64,000 nt of DNA, taken from positions 2,666,001-2,730,000 of the forward strand of contig NZ_CP016279.1 of assembly GCF_001542625.1 (NCBI RefSeq), read 5' to 3'. This document shows, piece by piece, positions 36,878-47,438 of this stretch; position 1 is the first letter of the stretch; every line of letters begins with the position of its first letter. The position numbers and the translations under genes are program-made. The notes beneath the pieces are model-generated. The model was not told the DNA's origin. It did not search any database and saw only the letters and a list, made by a program, of their open reading frames with translations. Origin of the DNA: Streptomyces griseochromogenes (GTDB lineage: Bacteria > Actinomycetota > Actinomycetes > Streptomycetales > Streptomycetaceae).

Positions 36878-37833
<956 letters not shown>

Positions 37834-37934: not shown

Positions 37935-39668
37935 TCAGCCGGTGCCGAGCGGGGTCCGTTCCAGGCAGACGGGAGGCAGCGGGAACCAGCGCATGCGCTC
38001 GAAGTCCTCGGACAGCCCGGTGGGGCCCTCGTCGAGGCGGCCGGAACGGGAGCGAAGCAGTTCGCGGGCGCGGTCGAGCTGGCCGGCCAGCGCGTCCTCG
38101 CTCAGCCGGCGGCGAGGGGCGGCCGGGGCGGTGATCCGTCCGTCGGCGGCGAAGCGCACATCGGTCAGCCGCAGCAGGCGGCCGGCGGCGCCGGCGTGGT
38201 GGTGCCACTGGCCCGTGTGCGGGTCGAAGCGGTAGTCGGGCAGGAGCCGGTGGCCGTGCGTGGCGATCAGATCGACGGCGTCGACCAGATAGTCGCGCAC
38301 GGCGTCGCTGATGAAGTAGTTGAAGTTCAGGCGGATCCAGCCGAGTTTGATGCCGTCGCAGCCGCGCGCGACCTCGTCGAGCAGGGCGTGCGAGGTGGCG
38401 GCGTCGATCGCCAGCAGACGGTGTCCGTACGGGCCCGCGCAGGAGCAGCCGCCGCGGGCCTGGATGCCGAACAGGTCGTTGAGCAGGGCGACGACGAAGT
38501 TGTGGTGCAGATGCGAGCCGTCACGGTGGCGGATGCGGAAGGAGACGATGGACAGCCGGCGGGCATGCCGGTTCCCGAGGATCTCCATGCGGGGGTTGGC
38601 GGCCCAGCGTGCCAGCGCATGGCGCAGATGGCGTTCCTCGGCGGCCTGGATCGTGGCCGTGCCCACGGCCTGCTTGAGCGTGAAGACCAGCCCGGCCCGG
38701 ACGGACTCGACGATCGCCGGTGTGCCGCCCTCCTCGCGGGAGACCGGGTCGTCGAGATAGCGATGGCCGAGCGGGTCGACGAAGGTGACCGTACCGCCGC
38801 CGGGCGTGGTGGGCACACGGTTGCGGATCAGGTCCCGGCGGATGACGAGGACACCCGGAGTCTGCGGGCCGCCGACGAACTTGTGCGGGGACAGGAAGAC
38901 CGCGTCTTTGTGGTCACCCGCGCCCGGCGCGCTCGCCGCGACCCGGATCGGGACGTAGGGGGCGGCGGCCGCGTAGTCCCAGAACGACAGGGCGCCATGG
39001 GCGTGCAGCAGCCGTGCCACCCGGTCGGTGTCGGTCAGGATCCCGGTGACGTTGGAGGCGGCCGAGAAGCTGCCGATGCGCAACGGGCGGTCGGCGTACC
39101 GGCGCAGGCCCGCCTCCAGCGCGCCGAGGTCGATGTGGCCGTCGGGGTCCTCGTCGATCACCACCACGTCGGCGACGGACTCGCGCCAGGGCAGTTCGTT
39201 GGAGTGGTGCTCGTACGGCCCCACGAACACCACGGGCCGTTCGGCCGGGGGCGGCGGGTCCGGGCGGCGCAGTTCCAGGATGCCGACCAGCTTGTTGACC
39301 GCGGCGGTGGCTCCCGAGCCGCAGAAGATCACGAGGTCGTCGTCGGTGCCGCCGACCGCGTCCCGGACGATCCGGCGGGCGTCCTCGCGCAGCACGGTCG
39401 TCTGCAGTCCGGTACGGGAGCTCTCCGTGTGGGTGTTGCCGTAGACCGGGAGCACCCGCTCGCGGATGAAGTCCTCGATGAAGTCGAGCGAGCGGCCGGA
39501 GGCGGTGTAGTCGGCGTAGACGATCCGCTTCGGGCCGTACGGGCCGTCCAGCACCTCGTCGTCGCCGACGAGCCCGCGGCGTATGCGCTCCAGCAGCGCC
39601 GACGAGGCCGGTAACGACGAGGCGCTCACGACCGCGGCCCGATGTCGCTCGTGGGCGGCCGTCGGCAT
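37935..39668 (-). CDS. Class V aminotransferase / cysteine desulfurase-like PLP enzyme
   Basis: A 577-residue fold-type I PLP enzyme. The PLP Lys is in FLSPHKFVGGPQT, the cofactor Asp in SFWDYAAAA, and Cys residues lie in RGGCSCAGPYGH near residue 410, where desulfurases have a mobile Cys. A C-terminal extension of roughly 110 residues goes beyond the usual SufS length of about 400. An operator of the CstR type lies 178 bases upstream of its start, linking it to the persulfide island, so it may make or remove cysteine-bound sulfur. True substrate unknown. Confidence 0.87.
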   Translation of the reverse strand: MPTAAHERHRAAVVSASSLPASSALLERIRRGLVGDDEVLDGPYGPKRIVYADYTASGRSLDFIEDFIRERVLPVYGNTHTESSRTGLQTTVLREDARRIVRDAVGGTDDDLVIFCGSGATAAVNKLVGILELRRPDPPPPAERPVVFVGPYEHHSNELPWRESVADVVVIDEDPDGHIDLGALEAGLRRYADRPLRIGSFSAASNVTGILTDTDRVARLLHAHGALSFWDYAAAAPYVPIRVAASAPGAGDHKDAVFLSPHKFVGGPQTPGVLVIRRDLIRNRVPTTPGGGTVTFVDPLGHRYLDDPVSREEGGTPAIVESVRAGLVFTLKQAVGTATIQAAEERHLRHALARWAANPRMEILGNRHARRLSIVSFRIRHRDGSHLHHNFVVALLNDLFGIQARGGCSCAGPYGHRLLAIDAATSHALLDEVARGCDGIKLGWIRLNFNYFISDAVRDYLVDAVDLIATHGHRLLPDYRFDPHTGQWHHHAGAAGRLLRLTDVRFAADGRITAPAAPRRRLSEDALAGQLDRARELLRSRSGRLDEGPTGLSEDFERMRWFPLPPVCLERTPLGTG

Positions 39669-40144: not shown

Positions 40145-42037
40145 GTGGACGGCTGGTTCTTCGTGGTCCTGCCCGACTGCGAGGGCGCACGGCACATCGC
40201 CGGGCGGCTCGCACCGCACACACGGCTGGTCCAAAGCCACCCATCGGGCCGCCCGCTGCTGCTGGCCGACGTGCCCTCGGCGCAGTTGGTGACGGCGCGG
40301 CGGGGGCCCGCGGCGGCGGCCGTGATCGGAATGTCGTCGGCGACCGAGCGGCTGCTGGGCGGAGCGCTGGGCGCCCACCCGACCACGGACGTGCTCGACC
40401 GGCTCGCCCACCGCCTGGCCGGCAGCTTCCATCTGGTCGCCGCGGACGGCGACCGGCTGCGGGTGCAGGGGTCGGCGAGCGGACTGCGGCGGGTGTTCCA
40501 CGCCGTGATCGACGGGGTGCGGGTGGTCTCGGACCGGGCGGACGTGCTGGCCCGGCTCGGCGGATTCCCGCTCGACGACACCTCGCTCGCGGTACGCCTG
40601 CTGCGGGTGCTGCCGCATCCCCTGGGGGAGCGGCCGATGTGGCGCGAGGTGAGCGCCGTACCGCCGGGATCCGCCCTCCTGCTGGACGCCCCGGGCGGGC
40701 GGACCCGTACGACCGTCTGGTGGCGCCGCCCCGAGCCCGAACTCGACCGGCGCTCCGGTGCCCTCGGACTGCGGGCCGCCCTCGAAGCGGCGGTGCAGGT
40801 CCGCACGTCGGCCGGTGGCACGGTGCACTGCGACCTGTCGGGCGGCCTGGACTCCACGCCACTGTGCTTCCTCGCGGCCGAGAGCGGCGCGGACGTCGTC
40901 GCCACGACGATGTACAACGACGACCCCGGCGGACGCGAGGACCTCCTCTGGGCCCGCCGGGCCCTGCCGGCCATGCCGGGACTGCGGCACGAGGTGGGCC
41001 GCCTCGACGACATGCCGCAGTTCTTCGAGGGCATGGAGGGGATCGGGCAGCGCCTGGACGAGCCCTCGCAGGCGTACCTGACGTCACCCCGCATCCGGTA
41101 CAGCGTCGAACGGGCGGCCGCGAACGGAGCCACGGTCTACGTCAACGGCCTGGGCGGCGACCATCTGCTGCACGGCCTGCCGGTGTGGGAGCACGCGCTG
41201 CTGCGCCGCCGTCCGCTGCTCGCCCTGCGCCGGGTGCGCACCACCATGGGGCTCGACGGCCGGCCGGTCCTGCCGGTCCTGCGGGAACTGCTCGACCGCG
41301 AGGGCTACGGCGCGTGGCTGCGGCGCTCGGTCGGCGCCGCCCGCCCGGTGCGCGAACAGAAGTCGGACCTGCGCATGGAGTGGGACCAGCCGGTCGCGCT
41401 GCCCCGCTGGCTGACCCCGGACGCCACCGGCGCGCTGCTGGCCCGGCTGCGCGAACTCGCCGCGGACGCCGAGCCGCTGGGACCGGACCGGGCCCGGCAC
41501 GCGGAGCTGGCCATGGTGCGCGACGGCAGCCGGATCGTACGGGGCACGCAGCAGTTCGCGGCGACCCTGGACATGCCCTTCGAAGCACCCTTCTTCGACG
41601 ACCGGGTCATCGAGGCGTGCTTCGCGGTACGTCATGAGGAACGCGACTCCCCGATGGAGTTCAAACCGCTCGTGAAGGCGGCCATGCGGGGCGCGCTGCC
41701 CGACGCATTCCTGCGGCGGGGTACGAAGATGGGCGGCAGCGTCCAGGCCGCCCGAGGACTTCGCGACCACTGGCCCACCGTCCTCGCCCTGTGCGAGCAC
41801 TCACCGCTCACCACCCGCGGTGTCATCGACTTCTCCGCCCTGGCCTCGGCCGAGTCGCCCGAGCACATGGGGACCCGCGACGCGTTCCTCGACGCGACCG
41901 TCAACTGCGCGGTGTTCGCCCGCAACCAGGAGGCGCCCGAGGACCGGGAGGGGACCCGGAGCCCACGGCGGCACGAGGCCGGCCCGGATCGCGACCACGA
42001 CAGCAAGGAGCACACCCATGACCCTGCGGCTGCATGA
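40145..42037 (+). CDS. Lasso peptide cyclase (asparagine synthetase-like, McjC type)
   Basis: A 630-residue asparagine-synthetase homologue. The C-terminal ATP-pyrophosphatase motif DLSGGLDSTP (near residue 237) is intact; the N-terminal glutaminase-like half lacks the catalytic Cys after the start, as in McjC proteins. The cyclase adenylates the ring Asp or Glu of the precursor core and closes the macrolactam with the freed N-terminus. The GTG is nine bases after GGAGG. Its 3' end overlaps the RRE gene by 20 bases. It is first in the cluster, whereas many actinobacterial clusters begin with the precursor. Confidence 0.92.
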   Translation: MDGWFFVVLPDCEGARHIAGRLAPHTRLVQSHPSGRPLLLADVPSAQLVTARRGPAAAAVIGMSSATERLLGGALGAHPTTDVLDRLAHRLAGSFHLVAADGDRLRVQGSASGLRRVFHAVIDGVRVVSDRADVLARLGGFPLDDTSLAVRLLRVLPHPLGERPMWREVSAVPPGSALLLDAPGGRTRTTVWWRRPEPELDRRSGALGLRAALEAAVQVRTSAGGTVHCDLSGGLDSTPLCFLAAESGADVVATTMYNDDPGGREDLLWARRALPAMPGLRHEVGRLDDMPQFFEGMEGIGQRLDEPSQAYLTSPRIRYSVERAAANGATVYVNGLGGDHLLHGLPVWEHALLRRRPLLALRRVRTTMGLDGRPVLPVLRELLDREGYGAWLRRSVGAARPVREQKSDLRMEWDQPVALPRWLTPDATGALLARLRELAADAEPLGPDRARHAELAMVRDGSRIVRGTQQFAATLDMPFEAPFFDDRVIEACFAVRHEERDSPMEFKPLVKAAMRGALPDAFLRRGTKMGGSVQAARGLRDHWPTVLALCEHSPLTTRGVIDFSALASAESPEHMGTRDAFLDATVNCAVFARNQEAPEDREGTRSPRRHEAGPDRDHDSKEHTHDPAAA

Positions 42038-42275
42038 CCACGTGTCCACGACCGAGACCGAGTACGGCGTGGTCGCCCTCGACCAACGCACCGGCCGCTA
42101 CTGGCAGCTCACGGCCTCCGCCGCCGTGGTGGTCACCGCCCTGGCACGCGGCGCCACCGCGGAGGAGGCGGCGAAGGCCCTCACCGACCGCTACGACGTC
42201 GACGCGGAGCGGGCGCGCGGGGACGTGGAGGCCCTGATCGGATCGCTGCGCTCGGCCGGGCTGGTGGCGCGATGA
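42018..42275 (+). CDS. Lasso RiPP recognition element protein (PqqD-like, B1)
   Basis: An 85-residue stand-alone PqqD-family protein with the winged-helix pattern GVVALDQRTGRYWQLTASAA and a C-terminal helix ending SLRSAGLVAR. In split lasso systems it binds the precursor leader and hands it to the peptidase. It overlaps the cyclase stop and the B2 start (ATGA), which indicates coupled translation. Confidence 0.93.
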   Translation: MTLRLHDHVSTTETEYGVVALDQRTGRYWQLTASAAVVVTALARGATAEEAAKALTDRYDVDAERARGDVEALIGSLRSAGLVAR

Positions 42276-42685
42276 GCATCCCGGTCCTGCCCGCCGAACC
42301 GGTCCGTGTGCCACTGGGGCGGCGCCTGGCCACGCACGCCGCGGTGGGCGCGGCGCGGGTGCTCGCCCGCCGCCCGCCCCGCCAGATCCGCGCGGTGCTG
42401 CTGCGGGTGCGGCGCGGCGCGCGCCCGGCGACCGTCACGGAGGCCTCCTGGGCACGGGACACCGTGCTCACGGTCAGCCCGCGGTGCTGCGGCTCCCGCG
42501 CGTGCCTGGTGCGCTCGATCGCCACCTGTCTGCTGTGCCGGACCCGTTCGGCGTGGCCGGTCTGGTGCGTCGGGGTGCTCAAGGCCCCGCCGTTCGCGGC
42601 GCACGCCTGGGTGGAGGCCGAGGGCGAGCTGGTCGACGAGGCCACGGACGGCTCCTGCTACACGCGCCTGATCACCGTCGAGTGA
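42272..42685 (+). CDS. Lasso leader peptidase (transglutaminase-like, B2)
   Basis: A 137-residue protein of the B2 family. The catalytic triad is visible: Cys in SRACLVRSIA near residue 77, His in FAAHAWVEAEG and Asp in ELVDEATD. It removes the leader after the penultimate Thr so that the cyclase can act. It overlaps B1. The precursor genes follow 68 bases later. Confidence 0.93.
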   Translation: MSIPVLPAEPVRVPLGRRLATHAAVGAARVLARRPPRQIRAVLLRVRRGARPATVTEASWARDTVLTVSPRCCGSRACLVRSIATCLLCRTRSAWPVWCVGVLKAPPFAAHAWVEAEGELVDEATDGSCYTRLITVE

Positions 42686-42699
42686 CAGGCCCCGGACTT

Positions 42700-42717
42700 C
42701 CGCCGGAATCCCGGCGG
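42700..42717 (+). promoter_or_regulatory. Small hairpin before the first precursor
   Basis: CCGCCGG-AATC-CCGGCGG lies between B2 and the precursor genes, 36 bases before the first ATG. It may affect transcript stability. Confidence 0.4.
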
Positions 42718-42753
42718 TGTACGACGACGAACCGCGGAAGGGAGGTGAACGGC

Positions 42754-42876
42754 ATGGACAAGGAGACCTACGAGGTTCCCGCCGTGGTGGAACTCGGCTC
42801 CTTCGGCGAGGAGACCGGTGTCTTCGGCATCCGCAACGGTGACGAGATCACCTGGTTCTTCGACACCTGGCAGTGA
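42754..42876 (+). CDS. Lasso peptide precursor A1
   Basis: A 40-residue peptide with a strong GGGAGGTG site. The 22-residue leader has the lasso motif YEVPAVVELGSF (the YxxPxLxxxGxF pattern, with Val at the Leu position) and Thr21 at the penultimate position. The predicted 18-residue core is VFGIRNGDEITWFFDTWQ: Val1 would form an 8-residue ring with Asp8. Glu9 would allow a 9-residue ring, but the second precursor favours position 8. The tail is rich in Trp and Phe that could act as steric plugs. There is no Cys, so it would be a class II lasso. Confidence 0.88.
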   Translation: MDKETYEVPAVVELGSFGEETGVFGIRNGDEITWFFDTWQ

Positions 42877-42928
42877 GCCCGAGGCACCGACCACCGCTTT
42901 CACAACACCGTATGAGGAGGTGACACAG

Positions 42929-43051
42929 ATGCAGAAGGACGTTTACGAGGTGCCGGCGCTGGTCGAGCTCGGCACGTTCGAGGAGGAGACCGGATTCTTC
43001 CGGAACGGGGCCAACGAGGCCTTCTTCTTCTTCCAGAACCAGAACGACTGA
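42929..43051 (+). CDS. Lasso peptide precursor A2
   Basis: A 40-residue paralogue of A1 with an AGGAGGTG site, 52 bases after the A1 stop. The leader (YEVPALVELGTF, Thr21) is the same length as that of A1. The predicted core FFRNGANEAFFFFQNQND has Phe1 and Glu8, giving an 8-residue ring, followed by four consecutive Phe and a polar end. Only RNG and the aromatic tail are shared with the A1 core, so one enzyme set would make two clearly different products. Too short for ordinary gene callers. Confidence 0.88.
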   Translation: MQKDVYEVPALVELGTFEEETGFFRNGANEAFFFFQNQND

Positions 43052-43078
43052 CCCTCGTCGGTCGGCTGGTGAGACGGT

Positions 43079-43125
43079 CCGCCGGGTGCGGTGGGACACG
43101 CCCGTGTCCTCACCGCACCCGGCGG
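43079..43125 (+). terminator. Strong hairpin after the precursor pair
   Basis: A 15-bp stem plus a 7-bp stem separated by a single bulged base closes a two-base turn, 27 bases after the A2 stop. There is no T-run. It likely stabilises the precursor mRNA 3' end and limits read-through into the exporter genes. Confidence 0.75.
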
Positions 43126-43173
43126 GCCTCGCGAGAACGGACGGGACGAGCGATGGACGGGGGAAGGGGGCGC

Positions 43174-44874
43174 ATGCGCGCGAGTGACCGGCTGCTGCTG
43201 TCGACGGTGGCACGCCAGAAGGGGCTGTTCGCGGCCCTTGCCGCGGTCCGGCTGTGCGAGACGGCCGCCGGCCTGCTCCTGCCGTACGCCGTCGCGCGGG
43301 CGATCGACACGGTACTGCGCCGCGGCGACACGATCGCCCCCCTGGTCCTGGTCTGCGCCCTGCTGCTCCTGACCACCGTCACGGAGATGGCCGGCCAGAT
43401 CGCCGAGGCGCGGGTGCGGGCCGGCAGCACGGCGCGGCTGCGCGACGACACGTTCGCGCACCTCTTCCGCGTGGGGCTCGCGGTGCGCGGCCGGTTCGGC
43501 TCCGGCGACCTGCTGAGCCGTGCGACGGACTCCACCGCGCAGGCCGGCGGCGCCGGACCCGGCCTGCTGCAGGCACTGTTCTCCGCGCTGACCGCCGCCG
43601 GAGGACTCGTGGCCCTGCTGCTCATCGACTGGCGGCTGGTGCTCGTCTTCGTCCTCGGGATTCCGGTGGTCGTGCTGCTCGCGCGGGTGCTCATCCGCCG
43701 CAGCACCGTGCTGACCCTCCAGTACCAGCAGGCGCAGGCGGAACTGTCCGAGCGGTTCGTCGACGCCGTCGGCGGCGCGCGCACCATCCGCGCGGCGGCC
43801 GCCGTGGAGGGGGAGACCGCGCGGGTCCTGGTCCCGCTTCCCCGTCTGCGCGCCGCGGGGACCGGATTCTGGGAGGCCCAGCGCCACGCCGGGTGGTATC
43901 TGGCGCTGCTGGCCCCGAGCCTGCAGATCGGGGTGCTGGCCACCGGCGGGTACGGGGTCGTCTCCGGACGCCTCACGGCAGGTCAGCTGCTGGCCGCCCA
44001 GATGTACTTGACGTTCGCGATGCGGCTGATGTCACAGGTCGGGATCTTCGCCGAGCTCGGGCGGGTGCGTGGCTCGGCCGAGCGACTGCGGGAGGTCTTC
44101 GCCGTGCCCGCCCCGCGCACCGGGAACGGCGCGCTGCCGCCCGGGGAGGGCACGCTCGTGCTGTCCGGCGTCACGGTGCGCACCGCCGACGGGGTGCCGG
44201 TGCTGGACCGGCTCTCGCTCAGCGTGCCCGCCGGCGGCACCCTCGCGGTGGTCGGCGCCTCCGGCGCGGGCAAGACCACCCTGGCGCTGGTCGCCGGGGG
44301 TGTGCTGGAACCGGACGAGGGGACGGTGACGCTCGACGGCGCAGACCTCGCCGCGACCCGCCGGTCCGAGGTCGGCGCCGCCGTCGCGTACGCCTTCGAA
44401 CGCCCGCATCCGCTCGGTGGCACCGTCGCGGAGATGATCGGCTACGGCGACCGGCCGCCGCCCGCGTCCGCGATCCGCGCCGCCGCACGCGCGAGCCGGG
44501 CCGACGGCTTCATCCGCCGTCTGCCCCGGGGCTACGACACGCCCGTTGACGAACTGCGGCTGTCCGGCGGGGAGTTGCAGCGCCTCGGGATCGCCCGCGC
44601 GGTGTGCCGCGGCGCCCGGGTCGTGATCCTGGACGACGCGATGTCGAGCGTGGACACGGCGACGGAGAGCGAGATCGCCCGGGCCCTGCGCGAGTCGCTG
44701 GGCCGCACCACGCGCATGGTGGTGGCCCACCGGATGTCCACGGCCGCGGCCGCCGACCGGGTGGCGTGGCTGGAACGGGGCCGGATCCGGGCCGTCGGCC
44801 GGCACGACGAACTCTGCGCCGATCCGGCCTACCGCGCCGTATTCGGCGTCGGCGCCCAGAACGCGGAGGTCTGA
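43174..44874 (+). CDS. ABC exporter subunit 1 (fused membrane and ATPase domains)
   Basis: A 566-residue half-transporter: six membrane segments in the first 300 residues, then an ATPase with Walker A GASGAGKTT, signature LSGGELQRLG, Walker B VVILDDAMSSVD and H-loop VVAHRMS. The residue after the Walker B Asp is Asp instead of the catalytic Glu, as in the degenerate half of heterodimeric exporters. The start at 43174 has a GGAAGGGGG site; 43153 would add seven residues. It pairs with the next gene to export the lasso peptides and give immunity. Confidence 0.88.
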   Translation: MRASDRLLLSTVARQKGLFAALAAVRLCETAAGLLLPYAVARAIDTVLRRGDTIAPLVLVCALLLLTTVTEMAGQIAEARVRAGSTARLRDDTFAHLFRVGLAVRGRFGSGDLLSRATDSTAQAGGAGPGLLQALFSALTAAGGLVALLLIDWRLVLVFVLGIPVVVLLARVLIRRSTVLTLQYQQAQAELSERFVDAVGGARTIRAAAAVEGETARVLVPLPRLRAAGTGFWEAQRHAGWYLALLAPSLQIGVLATGGYGVVSGRLTAGQLLAAQMYLTFAMRLMSQVGIFAELGRVRGSAERLREVFAVPAPRTGNGALPPGEGTLVLSGVTVRTADGVPVLDRLSLSVPAGGTLAVVGASGAGKTTLALVAGGVLEPDEGTVTLDGADLAATRRSEVGAAVAYAFERPHPLGGTVAEMIGYGDRPPPASAIRAAARASRADGFIRRLPRGYDTPVDELRLSGGELQRLGIARAVCRGARVVILDDAMSSVDTATESEIARALRESLGRTTRMVVAHRMSTAAAADRVAWLERGRIRAVGRHDELCADPAYRAVFGVGAQNAEV

Positions 44875-46785
44875 GTGCCGAACTCGCCACGTCACGCACA
44901 CGACCGGCAGGACCAGCAGCACAACGCGGCGGGCGGCCCCCTGACGGTCCGCCGGCTGATCGGGCCGGTGCTGCGCTCCCACCGCGGGCACCTCGGTGCC
45001 CTCGCCGCCTGGTCCGTCGTCGAGACCGGGCCCGTCCTGCTGTCCGGCACGATCGTCGGGGCCGCGCTCGACCGCGGGTTCCTGGCCGGGCGCCCGGGCC
45101 TGGGACTGCTGCTCCTGCTCGGATACGGCGGCTGCCTGGTGCTCGGCACGTTCGGCACCCGCCAGGCCATGCCGCACGCGGCGGCCGTCGTGGAGTCGCT
45201 GCGCGACGCCCTGACCCGGCACGTGGTCCGGGCCGGGCTGTGCCGCGCCGTGTACGGCGACGGTGCGGCCCCGGGGCCGTCCGCCGACGTCTCCGCCGTC
45301 ACCCGGGCGACCCGTCAGGTGGAGACGGTCCGGCAGCTGGCCGGCGGGCTGCTGCTGACGCTGCGCACGGTGGCCTTCGGCGTGGTCGCCGCCCTCGTCG
45401 GCCTGTTCGCGCTCGATCCGGTCATCGCGGCCGTCACCGGCGGCTCGGTGCTGGTGGCCGGCGCGCTCATGACCCGGCTGACCCCGCTGCTCAGGCGGCG
45501 TCATGTCGCCCTGCTGGAGGCCCAGGAGGAGCTGGCCCGGCGGGCGGGACCGCATCTGTCGGGCATCCGGGACGTGGCGACCTGCGGCGCGTGGGAGACG
45601 GCGACGCGGACGGTGGGCGGGTGCGTCGACGCCGAGGCGGCGGCCCTGCTGGCGGAGGCCCGCGCCGGTACCGGACGCATCGCCGTCATCGCGGCGGGCG
45701 CGCGGCTGCCGTTCGCGGTGGTTCTGCTGTGCTCGGCCTGGCTGGTCCGCTCGGGGCTGCTGACACCGGGCGCGCTGATCGGCGCGATGGTGTACCTGCT
45801 GCAGGGCATCGAACCGGCGCTGCGCGCCTTGGTGCAGACCGTCGGCACCATGGGGCTGCAACTGTCGGTCACCCTGCGCCGCACGGCCGCGTTCGCCGAC
45901 GTCGTCCCGCCCCGCCCGGGCGGTACCGCCCCGGTCACCGGCTCGGACGTCGCGCTGACCGACGTGTCGTTCGCCTACGGCCCCCACGCCGAGCCCGTCC
46001 TGTCCCGGGTGACGCTTCGGGTTCCGGACGGCTCGCATCTGGCGGTGGTCGGGCCGAGCGGCGTCGGCAAGTCCACGCTCGCCCTGCTGATCGGCGGCAT
46101 CGAGCATCCGGCCGGCGGAACGGTGACGCTCGGCGGCACACCGGTCGGCCTGCTGGACACCGCGGAATTGCGCCGTCACGTCGCCGTCGTCCCCCAGCAG
46201 TCGTACATCTTCGCCGGGACGCTGCGGGAGAACCTCACGATGCTCTCTCCCCACGCCACCGACACCGAACTCGAAGCCGCTATCAGCCTGTTGGGCCTGG
46301 AGGGGACCGTGCGGCGGCTCGGCGGGTACGGCGCCCGGATCTCCGGATCGGCGCCCCTGTCCCAGGGAGAGCGTCAACTGATCACCCTCGTACGGGTGTA
46401 TGTCTCCCGCGCCCGGATCGTGATCCTCGACGAGGCGACCTGCCATCTGGAGCCGGTGGCCGAGAAGCGGGCGGAGGAGGCCTTCGCCGCCCGGCCCGGC
46501 ACCCTGATCGTGGTGGCACACCGGCTCTCCTCGGCGCTGCGCGCCCGCCGGATCGCCGTGGTCGCGTCGGGCCGCCTCACCGTGGGCACACACGCCGAAC
46601 TCCTGGACCGCGCACCGGAGTACGCGGCGCTGATCGGCCACTGGCGGTCCGGTGATCCGCTCGGCCGGAGGGAACCGGTGCGGTACGGCCCCGTCGGTAG
46701 AGTCGGAGCGCGTCCGGGTACCCGCACCGGTGGCGGGACCGCCCCGGCCGCCCTGACGGAGCCGGACGTGGAGGCAGAGCCGTGA
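44875..46785 (+). CDS. ABC exporter subunit 2
   Basis: A 636-residue half-transporter starting at the GTG directly after the stop of subunit 1. The ATPase has Walker A GPSGVGKST, a variant signature LSQGERQLI, Walker B IVILDEATCHLE with the catalytic Glu, and H-loop VVAHRLS. It supplies the active site that subunit 1 lacks. A polar tail of about 50 residues follows the ATPase. Its end overlaps the response regulator start (GTGA). Confidence 0.9.
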   Translation: MPNSPRHAHDRQDQQHNAAGGPLTVRRLIGPVLRSHRGHLGALAAWSVVETGPVLLSGTIVGAALDRGFLAGRPGLGLLLLLGYGGCLVLGTFGTRQAMPHAAAVVESLRDALTRHVVRAGLCRAVYGDGAAPGPSADVSAVTRATRQVETVRQLAGGLLLTLRTVAFGVVAALVGLFALDPVIAAVTGGSVLVAGALMTRLTPLLRRRHVALLEAQEELARRAGPHLSGIRDVATCGAWETATRTVGGCVDAEAAALLAEARAGTGRIAVIAAGARLPFAVVLLCSAWLVRSGLLTPGALIGAMVYLLQGIEPALRALVQTVGTMGLQLSVTLRRTAAFADVVPPRPGGTAPVTGSDVALTDVSFAYGPHAEPVLSRVTLRVPDGSHLAVVGPSGVGKSTLALLIGGIEHPAGGTVTLGGTPVGLLDTAELRRHVAVVPQQSYIFAGTLRENLTMLSPHATDTELEAAISLLGLEGTVRRLGGYGARISGSAPLSQGERQLITLVRVYVSRARIVILDEATCHLEPVAEKRAEEAFAARPGTLIVVAHRLSSALRARRIAVVASGRLTVGTHAELLDRAPEYAALIGHWRSGDPLGRREPVRYGPVGRVGARPGTRTGGGTAPAALTEPDVEAEP

Positions 46786-47438
46786 GCAGTGACCGTTCCA
46801 TCGGCGTCGTGCTCATCGACGACCATCCGGTGGTGCTGGCCGGTATCGAGTCCTGGGTGGCGCACGCGGACACGGGGGTACGGGTGGTGGCCAAGGGCGC
46901 CGATGTGTCGGTCGCGGTCACGGGAGCGGGGCGGGACGCCGACGTGGTGATCCTCGATCTGCAGCTCGGCTCGGGGGTGCCCGCGTACGCCGCCCTGCGC
47001 CGGCTCGTCGCGGAGCACCGGCAGGTGATCGTCTACACCATGCAGGACAGCCCGCAGGCGGCCCTGACCTGTCTGGACATAGGCGCGTTCACCTACCTGA
47101 CGAAGGCGGAGGGTGAGGAGCACCTGCTCCAGGCCGTGCTGGCCGCGGCCGAGGGAGTGCCGTACACACCGCCCGCGCTGGCCGGGGCGTTCGGCAGCGA
47201 CACCCGGCGCGAGCGCCCGCGGCTGGCCTCCCGCGAGATCGAGGTGCTCCTCGAATGGTTCCAGTCGGAGTCCAAGGCGATGGTCGCCGAGAGCCTCGGC
47301 ATCTCGGTGCGTACCGTGAACACCTATCTGGACCGGGTGCGGATCAAGTACGCGAACGCGGGACGGCCCGCGACGACCAAGGCGAACCTGGTCGCCAAGG
47401 CGGTGCAGGACGGGCTGATCTCACTGGAGGAACTCTGA
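46782..47438 (+). CDS. NarL/LuxR-type response regulator
   Basis: A 218-residue regulator: a receiver domain (VVLIDDHPVVLAGIE; phosphorylation Asp in VVILDLQLG near residue 60; Lys in YLTKAEGEE) and a C-terminal LuxR HTH (LASREIEVLLEWFQSESKAMVAESLG, then SVRTVNTYLDRVR). It is coupled to the exporter gene. Its 3' end overlaps the convergent kinase gene by 18 bases. It probably controls the lasso cluster or exporter in response to one of the two kinases. Confidence 0.9.
   Translation: MSSDRSIGVVLIDDHPVVLAGIESWVAHADTGVRVVAKGADVSVAVTGAGRDADVVILDLQLGSGVPAYAALRRLVAEHRQVIVYTMQDSPQAALTCLDIGAFTYLTKAEGEEHLLQAVLAAAEGVPYTPPALAGAFGSDTRRERPRLASREIEVLLEWFQSESKAMVAESLGISVRTVNTYLDRVRIKYANAGRPATTKANLVAKAVQDGLISLEEL

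Follow-up and report, generated by a model that had tools for sequence, protein, structure and literature searches.

A predicted two-precursor lasso-peptide cluster of Streptomyces griseochromogenes with conserved cores and two candidate ring acids in one of them

We analysed a 64,000-nucleotide stretch of Streptomyces griseochromogenes DNA (hereafter the window; contig NZ_CP016279.1, positions 2,666,001 to 2,730,000, from a genome of 10.76 Mb in one contig) in which positions 40145 to 46785 hold a putative lasso-peptide cluster with two precursor genes. The initial annotation of this DNA had described a complete set of cyclase, RiPP (ribosomally synthesized and post-translationally modified peptide) recognition element, B2 peptidase, precursors A1 and A2 and two-subunit exporter, and all of these genes are present, reading C-B1-B2-A1-A2-D1-D2 along the + strand:

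40145..42037, + strand: lasso cyclase C (asparagine-synthetase-like), GTG start, Pfam PF00733 at 98.9 bits, ATP loop SGGLDS
42018..42275, + strand: B1, RiPP recognition element (PqqD-like), NF033530 at 105.4 bits (cut-off 70)
42272..42685, + strand: B2, leader peptidase (transglutaminase-like), NF033537 at 106.3 bits (cut-off 33)
42754..42876, + strand: precursor A1, leader MDKETYEVPAVVELGSFGEETG, core VFGIRNGDEITWFFDTWQ, lasso_leader_L3 at 19.7 bits (cut-off 19)
42929..43051, + strand: precursor A2, leader MQKDVYEVPALVELGTFEEETG, core FFRNGANEAFFFFQNQND, lasso_leader_L3 at 23.4 bits (cut-off 19)
43153..44874, + strand: D1, ABC exporter half, PF00664 and PF00005, 72% identical to its counterpart in Streptomyces sp. 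L-9-10 (locus L033)
44875..46785, + strand: D2, ABC exporter half, PF00005 at 85.6 bits, PF00664 at 27.6 bits (cut-off 28)

Overlaps join C to B1, B1 to B2 and D2 to the response regulator gene that follows, and D2 begins 1 base past the end of D1; judged from the start of the L033 counterpart, D1 may instead start at the ATG at 43174. A separate GGAGGTGA site precedes the start codon of each precursor gene, and both genes encode a leader of 22 residues ending in Thr-Gly and a core of 18 residues, as had been described.

The locus is very probably a lasso-peptide cluster as such, ring size aside. The cyclase has its ATP loop, B1 and B2 score above their family cut-offs, and each precursor has Thr at −2 and an acid within core positions 7–9 (Asp8 and Glu9 in A1, Glu8 in A2). 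A sequence search matched B1 to the solved TfuB1 (6jx3; E 3.4e-15), and A2 scored 29.6 against the Pfam family DUF5972 (cut-off 22.6). Motifs were seen in B2 around Cys78, His111 and Asp122, which we take to be its likely catalytic residues. Chance open reading frames were rejected as the source of A1 and A2: a precursor-shaped pattern, drawn up after both had been seen, matched their reading frames and no others in the six frames of the window, and 200 sequences simulated from the window by a first-order Markov model contained no match. Several observations weigh on the other side, as C falls below every NCBIfam cut-off (best NF033561, 216.7 versus 300), A1 falls below the DUF5972 cut-off at 21.2, and the sequence search for solved relatives found none for C or B2. 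In the exporter, the membrane domain of D2 lies narrowly under its Pfam cut-off, while the ABC ATPase domains of both halves lie above theirs; Walker B ends in Asp-Asp in D1 (a degenerate site) and is the canonical LDEA in D2, and an Asp-Asp/Asp-Glu pair is usual in heterodimeric exporters with one weak site. Neither core contains Cys, on which the disulfide-bearing classes I, III and IV depend, and by the sequence features tested the cluster is probably of class II, whose members have no disulfide and depend on threading and a steric lock.

Related clusters were then compared, with further genomes and loci given by our own G and L labels; the genome sets searched were samples, and three cyclase candidates were scored per genome. 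A cyclase pattern scan of genome contigs returned two loci, L033 (75% identity) and that of Amycolatopsis xylanica (L034; 64%). A threshold of 1e-100 gave cyclase matches in 65 of 392 genomes of the genus, and identities of at least 50% were confined to the own genome, G109 (55%) and G333 (50%), with the rest at no more than 45%. The A. xylanica family gave matches at 1e-125 in 10 of 390 genomes, that of A. xylanica among them, and seven of the ten fell inside a group of 11 cyclases, from Streptomyces and that family, which a branch with 100/100 support separated from the other rows of the tree. On the opposite side of this 42-row tree, for which those genus matches with a locus were taken, were 31 citrulassin-type and other cyclases of A-C-B1-B2 clusters. 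The tree is unrooted and midpoint-drawn, so that 'group' presumes a root outside it, and G1265 sits on a long branch with unsure placement. Since the first scan passed over members at 45–57% identity that the genus and family searches recovered, the group may exceed these 11 clusters. Plasmid copies of this group were set aside, as the six plasmid records retrieved at 1e-50 reached 39.9% identity at best. A wide spread was set aside as well: of 396 genomes sampled across the phylum, the precursor profile hit the own genome and no other, and of 394 sampled across the class, the cyclase search at 1e-125 hit the own genome and one of citrulassin type.

The 11 clusters hold 20 precursors, with two or three in seven of them: two each in the window, L033, G333, G1468 and G1336, three each in L034 and G1485, and one each in G109, G1207, G1138 and G1265. 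These counts come from leader patterns that divergent precursors may escape. The third G1485 precursor lies at 9137 of L091 on the − strand, with Thr-Cys before its core and an acid solely at position 9. Homologues of both D1 and D2 occur in 7 of 10 related loci. The placement of the precursors after the enzymes, first remarked on as uncommon, is real and is common to the group: C-B1-B2-A order occurs in 10 of the 11 clusters, making it a group trait and no oddity of the S. griseochromogenes strain. The exception is G1265, where A-B1-B2 lie on the opposite strand and converge on C with other frames between. In 30 loci (L035-L064) A follows B2 in three (window, G109 and G333) and precedes C in 27, and all 31 non-group tree rows (the 27 of L038-L064 together with L076, L084, L085 and L086) have the precursor upstream of C.

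Between the window and L033, the A1 core is identical and the A2 core differs by one change. The A1 core has four synonymous and no nonsynonymous changes (proportion of synonymous differences, pS, 0.40), and the A2 core has three and one (pS 0.34), while the leaders carry 5 (A1) and 11 (A2) nonsynonymous changes and C has a pS of 0.461 and a nonsynonymous proportion (pN) of 0.160. Both cores thus appear conserved against L033 while enzymes and leaders drift; the cores are short and the counts small, and both point in the same direction. Beyond this pair, seven A1-type cores in six clusters have N6, E9, W12, D15, T16 and W17 in 7/7, and the pattern GxRNx[DE]ExxWxxDTW is common to Streptomyces and the A. 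xylanica family. Lasso cores are termed hypervariable in PMC12971885. Retention of the A1-type core across six clusters from two families, at cyclase identities down to ~48%, suggests a conserved target. The four consecutive Phe of the A2 tail had been put forward as an unusual plug; the run is present and is not conserved as such, reading YFFF in L033 and YWFL in Amycolatopsis (L034). Comparison with published lasso peptides had also been called for, and neither core turned up in literature searches by core and by fragments, the latter giving no title of relevance, although supplementary lists of mined lasso peptides, which those searches did not cover, may hold them.

With genes, families, synteny and core conservation read directly from the sequence, homology would supply the biochemical steps. 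B1 would bind the two leaders, of the form Tyr-x-x-Pro...Leu-Gly-x-Phe, and B2 would cleave after Thr-Gly, with Thr at −2. C would then adenylate the ring acid and link it to the free N-terminus during threading of the tail, bulky tail residues would keep the tail in place, and a D1-D2 heterodimer would export both peptides.

The acid at core position 8 noted in both precursors is there (Asp8 in A1, Glu8 in A2), and the eight-residue ring that the initial annotation derived from it for both is secure for A2 and evenly balanced for A1. In A2, Glu8 is the sole acid within positions 7–9, and the ring should be of eight residues, Phe1-Glu8. In A1, two adjacent candidate acids leave the ring size unsettled, and this counts against a uniform eight; we consider eight and nine residues about equally probable. 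Across the group, an acid occurs at position 8 in 18 of the 20 precursors and at position 9 in 11. The nine cores with acids at both 8 and 9 all have Glu at 9, and four have Asp and the others Glu at 8; one G333 core has Asp7 and Glu8. Among eight single-acid Glu8 cores, an aromatic residue follows at +3 in four (A2 of the window, A2 of L033 and two L034 cores) and is absent there in the other four (G109, one G333 and two G1485 cores), and the two Glu9-only cores (the third G1485 precursor and G1265) have an aromatic residue at +3.

A nine-residue A1 ring through Glu9, made by the same cyclase that closes A2 at eight through Glu8, has close to an even chance of being right. MAFFT places A1 Glu9 opposite A2 Glu8, Glu9 is invariant both in the A1-type cores and in the double-acid cores while position 8 varies between Asp and Glu, and Trp stands at +3 of position 9 in eight of the nine double-acid cores, with Trp likewise at +3 of Glu8 in two L034 cores. 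Of the three G1485 precursors, two carry the acid at position 8 and the third (AGPPAQAQEILW) carries it only at position 9, as does the single G1265 precursor. Furthermore, cores with a single acid in positions 7–9 all use Glu (10/10) versus Asp8 in 4/9 double-acid cores (Fisher p 0.033, uncorrected for kinship), and caulosegnin enzymes natively give rings of both 8 and 9 residues (PMC13352647). Counted from the leader, however, position 8 is the most frequent acid column, and the four single-acid Glu8 cores that lack an aromatic residue at +3 show that the tail rule is not general. A one-residue change of ring size also usually, and significantly, lowers production, although fusilassin rings of 7–10 residues were tolerated (PMC13352647).

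An eight-residue A1 ring through Asp8, with Glu9 merely opening the loop, is neither more nor less probable than the Glu9 ring. The prevalence of acids at position 8 favours it, as does the retention of a carboxylate there in 9/9 double-acid cores despite the Asp/Glu swap, and the ring size would then equal that of A2 and citrulassin N. It leaves the invariant Glu9, the tail register, the Glu of every single-acid core and the position-9-only precursors of the group as points against it. We put forward only tentatively, and at rather less than an even chance, that one cyclase makes a conserved pair with unequal rings, of nine residues through Glu9 in A1 and of eight through Glu8 in A2, or that A1 yields two ring isomers of equal mass. 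If this is true, the A1-type core, kept across both families, would have a fixed target. The group offers an unusually clear natural test of how the ring acid is chosen, as Asp/Glu8 adjacent to Glu9, Glu8 alone and Glu9 alone occur there with related enzymes.

These ring counts assume that the leaders are cut after Thr-Gly, which is likely. Thr occupies −2 in 20/20 group precursors and Gly occupies −1 in 18/20, with Cys or Ala in the other two. The Val and Phe at position 1 of the cores, singled out earlier as replacing the usual Gly, are present and ordinary, given that Gly1 occurs in 0/20 group precursors and citrulassin N closes its ring at Leu1. Cleavage between Thr and Gly, by which both cores would begin with Gly1 and have rings one residue larger, is very improbable: Gly does follow Thr in most precursors and Gly1 is frequent in other lasso peptides, but Thr at −2 is the recognition residue for lasso leader cleavage, Cys or Ala replaces that Gly in two precursors, and the exact citrulassin N core directly follows the same Thr-Gly in the precursor of another genome of the genus (L020). 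Citrulassin N itself begins after this Gly, its Leu1-Asp8 ring being shown by tandem mass spectrometry (PMC12971885), and the leader evidence comes from L020, not from the producing strain. Equally remote is the view that A1 is the single product and A2 a decayed or idle duplicate, for which there is no direct support beyond the four clusters showing just one precursor, and against which stand the single nonsynonymous change in the A2 core, its own GGAGGTGA site and its counterpart in L034.

Among known systems, the felipeptins are reportedly an Amycolatopsis pair whose two lasso peptides come from a single actinobacterial cluster. They differ in being class IV with a disulfide (PMC9266682), whereas the A1 and A2 cores lack Cys. 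Caulosegnins I-III also arise as several distinct cores from one enzyme set, but in Caulobacter segnis and with both ring sizes established, which is here a possibility (PMC13352647). The aborycin/siamycin cluster resembles the locus in its A, C, B1, B2 and ABC genes, histidine kinase, response regulator and nearby SARP gene, and differs in a four-Cys core, one precursor listed before C and extra disulfide genes (PMC6409603). Fusilassin/fuscanodin, the source of TfuB1, shares the split B1/B2 and differs in a native nine-residue ring and a four-gene cluster (PMC13352647). Citrulassins (citrulassin N, LLQSSGNDRLILSKN) share the leader type with Thr-Gly, the bulky residue 1 and the acid at 8, and C is 41–46% identical to the 31 non-group tree cyclases, mostly with citrulassin-type cores. 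They differ in having A-C-B1-B2 order and one 15-residue core with Asp8 and an Arg9 converted to citrulline, versus two 18-residue cores after B2 here; as Arg9 just beyond the ring is their hallmark (PMC12971885) and residue 9 is Glu in A1 and Ala in A2, citrulassin membership was rejected.

Downstream of the exporter lie four regulatory genes:

46782..47438, + strand: LuxR-type response regulator, PF00072 and PF00196, homologues in L034, L087 and L088 at 62-64% identity
47421..48965, − strand: putative pseudo-histidine kinase, the part common to relatives running from ~48587 downwards, homologues in L034, L087 and L088
48727..49959, − strand: sensor histidine kinase, PF02518 at 39.8 bits, homologues in L034, L087, L088 and, truncated at the contig end, L033
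49988..52000, + strand: SARP-type pathway activator with Trans_reg_C, BTAD and NB-ARC domains, matches in 7/10 related loci

Together these would probably control the operon. In the ten related loci, tblastn found SARP-like matches in seven, the response regulator in three, the pseudo-kinase in three and the histidine kinase in four; the loci vary in reach, making absences of regulatory genes soft. The pseudo-kinase had no Pfam match. Foldseek gave it a possible kinase-like fold (E 8e-5) with low TM-scores, and as these were low and the predicted structure reached a predicted TM-score (pTM) of 0.42, the kinase-like C-terminal part alone was used. In L088, kinase and pseudo-kinase share one 756-codon open frame, which suggests joint action. 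In the G1207 homologue of the pseudo-kinase (L087, 13082-14440), the frame in which the match begins runs into an early stop (56-79 codons), and the homologue may start later or be broken. Aborycin has similar regulatory genes nearby, so a module of this type is not confined to the cluster.

Before the cluster, the window encodes a class V aminotransferase-like protein (37935-39668, − strand; PF00266), to which none of the ten related loci gave a match, and, at 36878-37833, what is presumably a small CsoR-type repressor lookalike (− strand) beside a rhodanese-like protein (+ strand). Elsewhere in the same genome, a second lasso cluster at 6269937-6271911 (L003, L067) is of citrulassin type, with core LLQRHGNDRLILSKN and its precursor before the cyclase; citrulassin-type precursors are carried by many genomes of the genus. 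One gene of the peptidylarginine-deiminase family is present at 1882641-1883645 (L093; PF04371, 360 bits), and the citrulassin of S. griseochromogenes may therefore be citrullinated.

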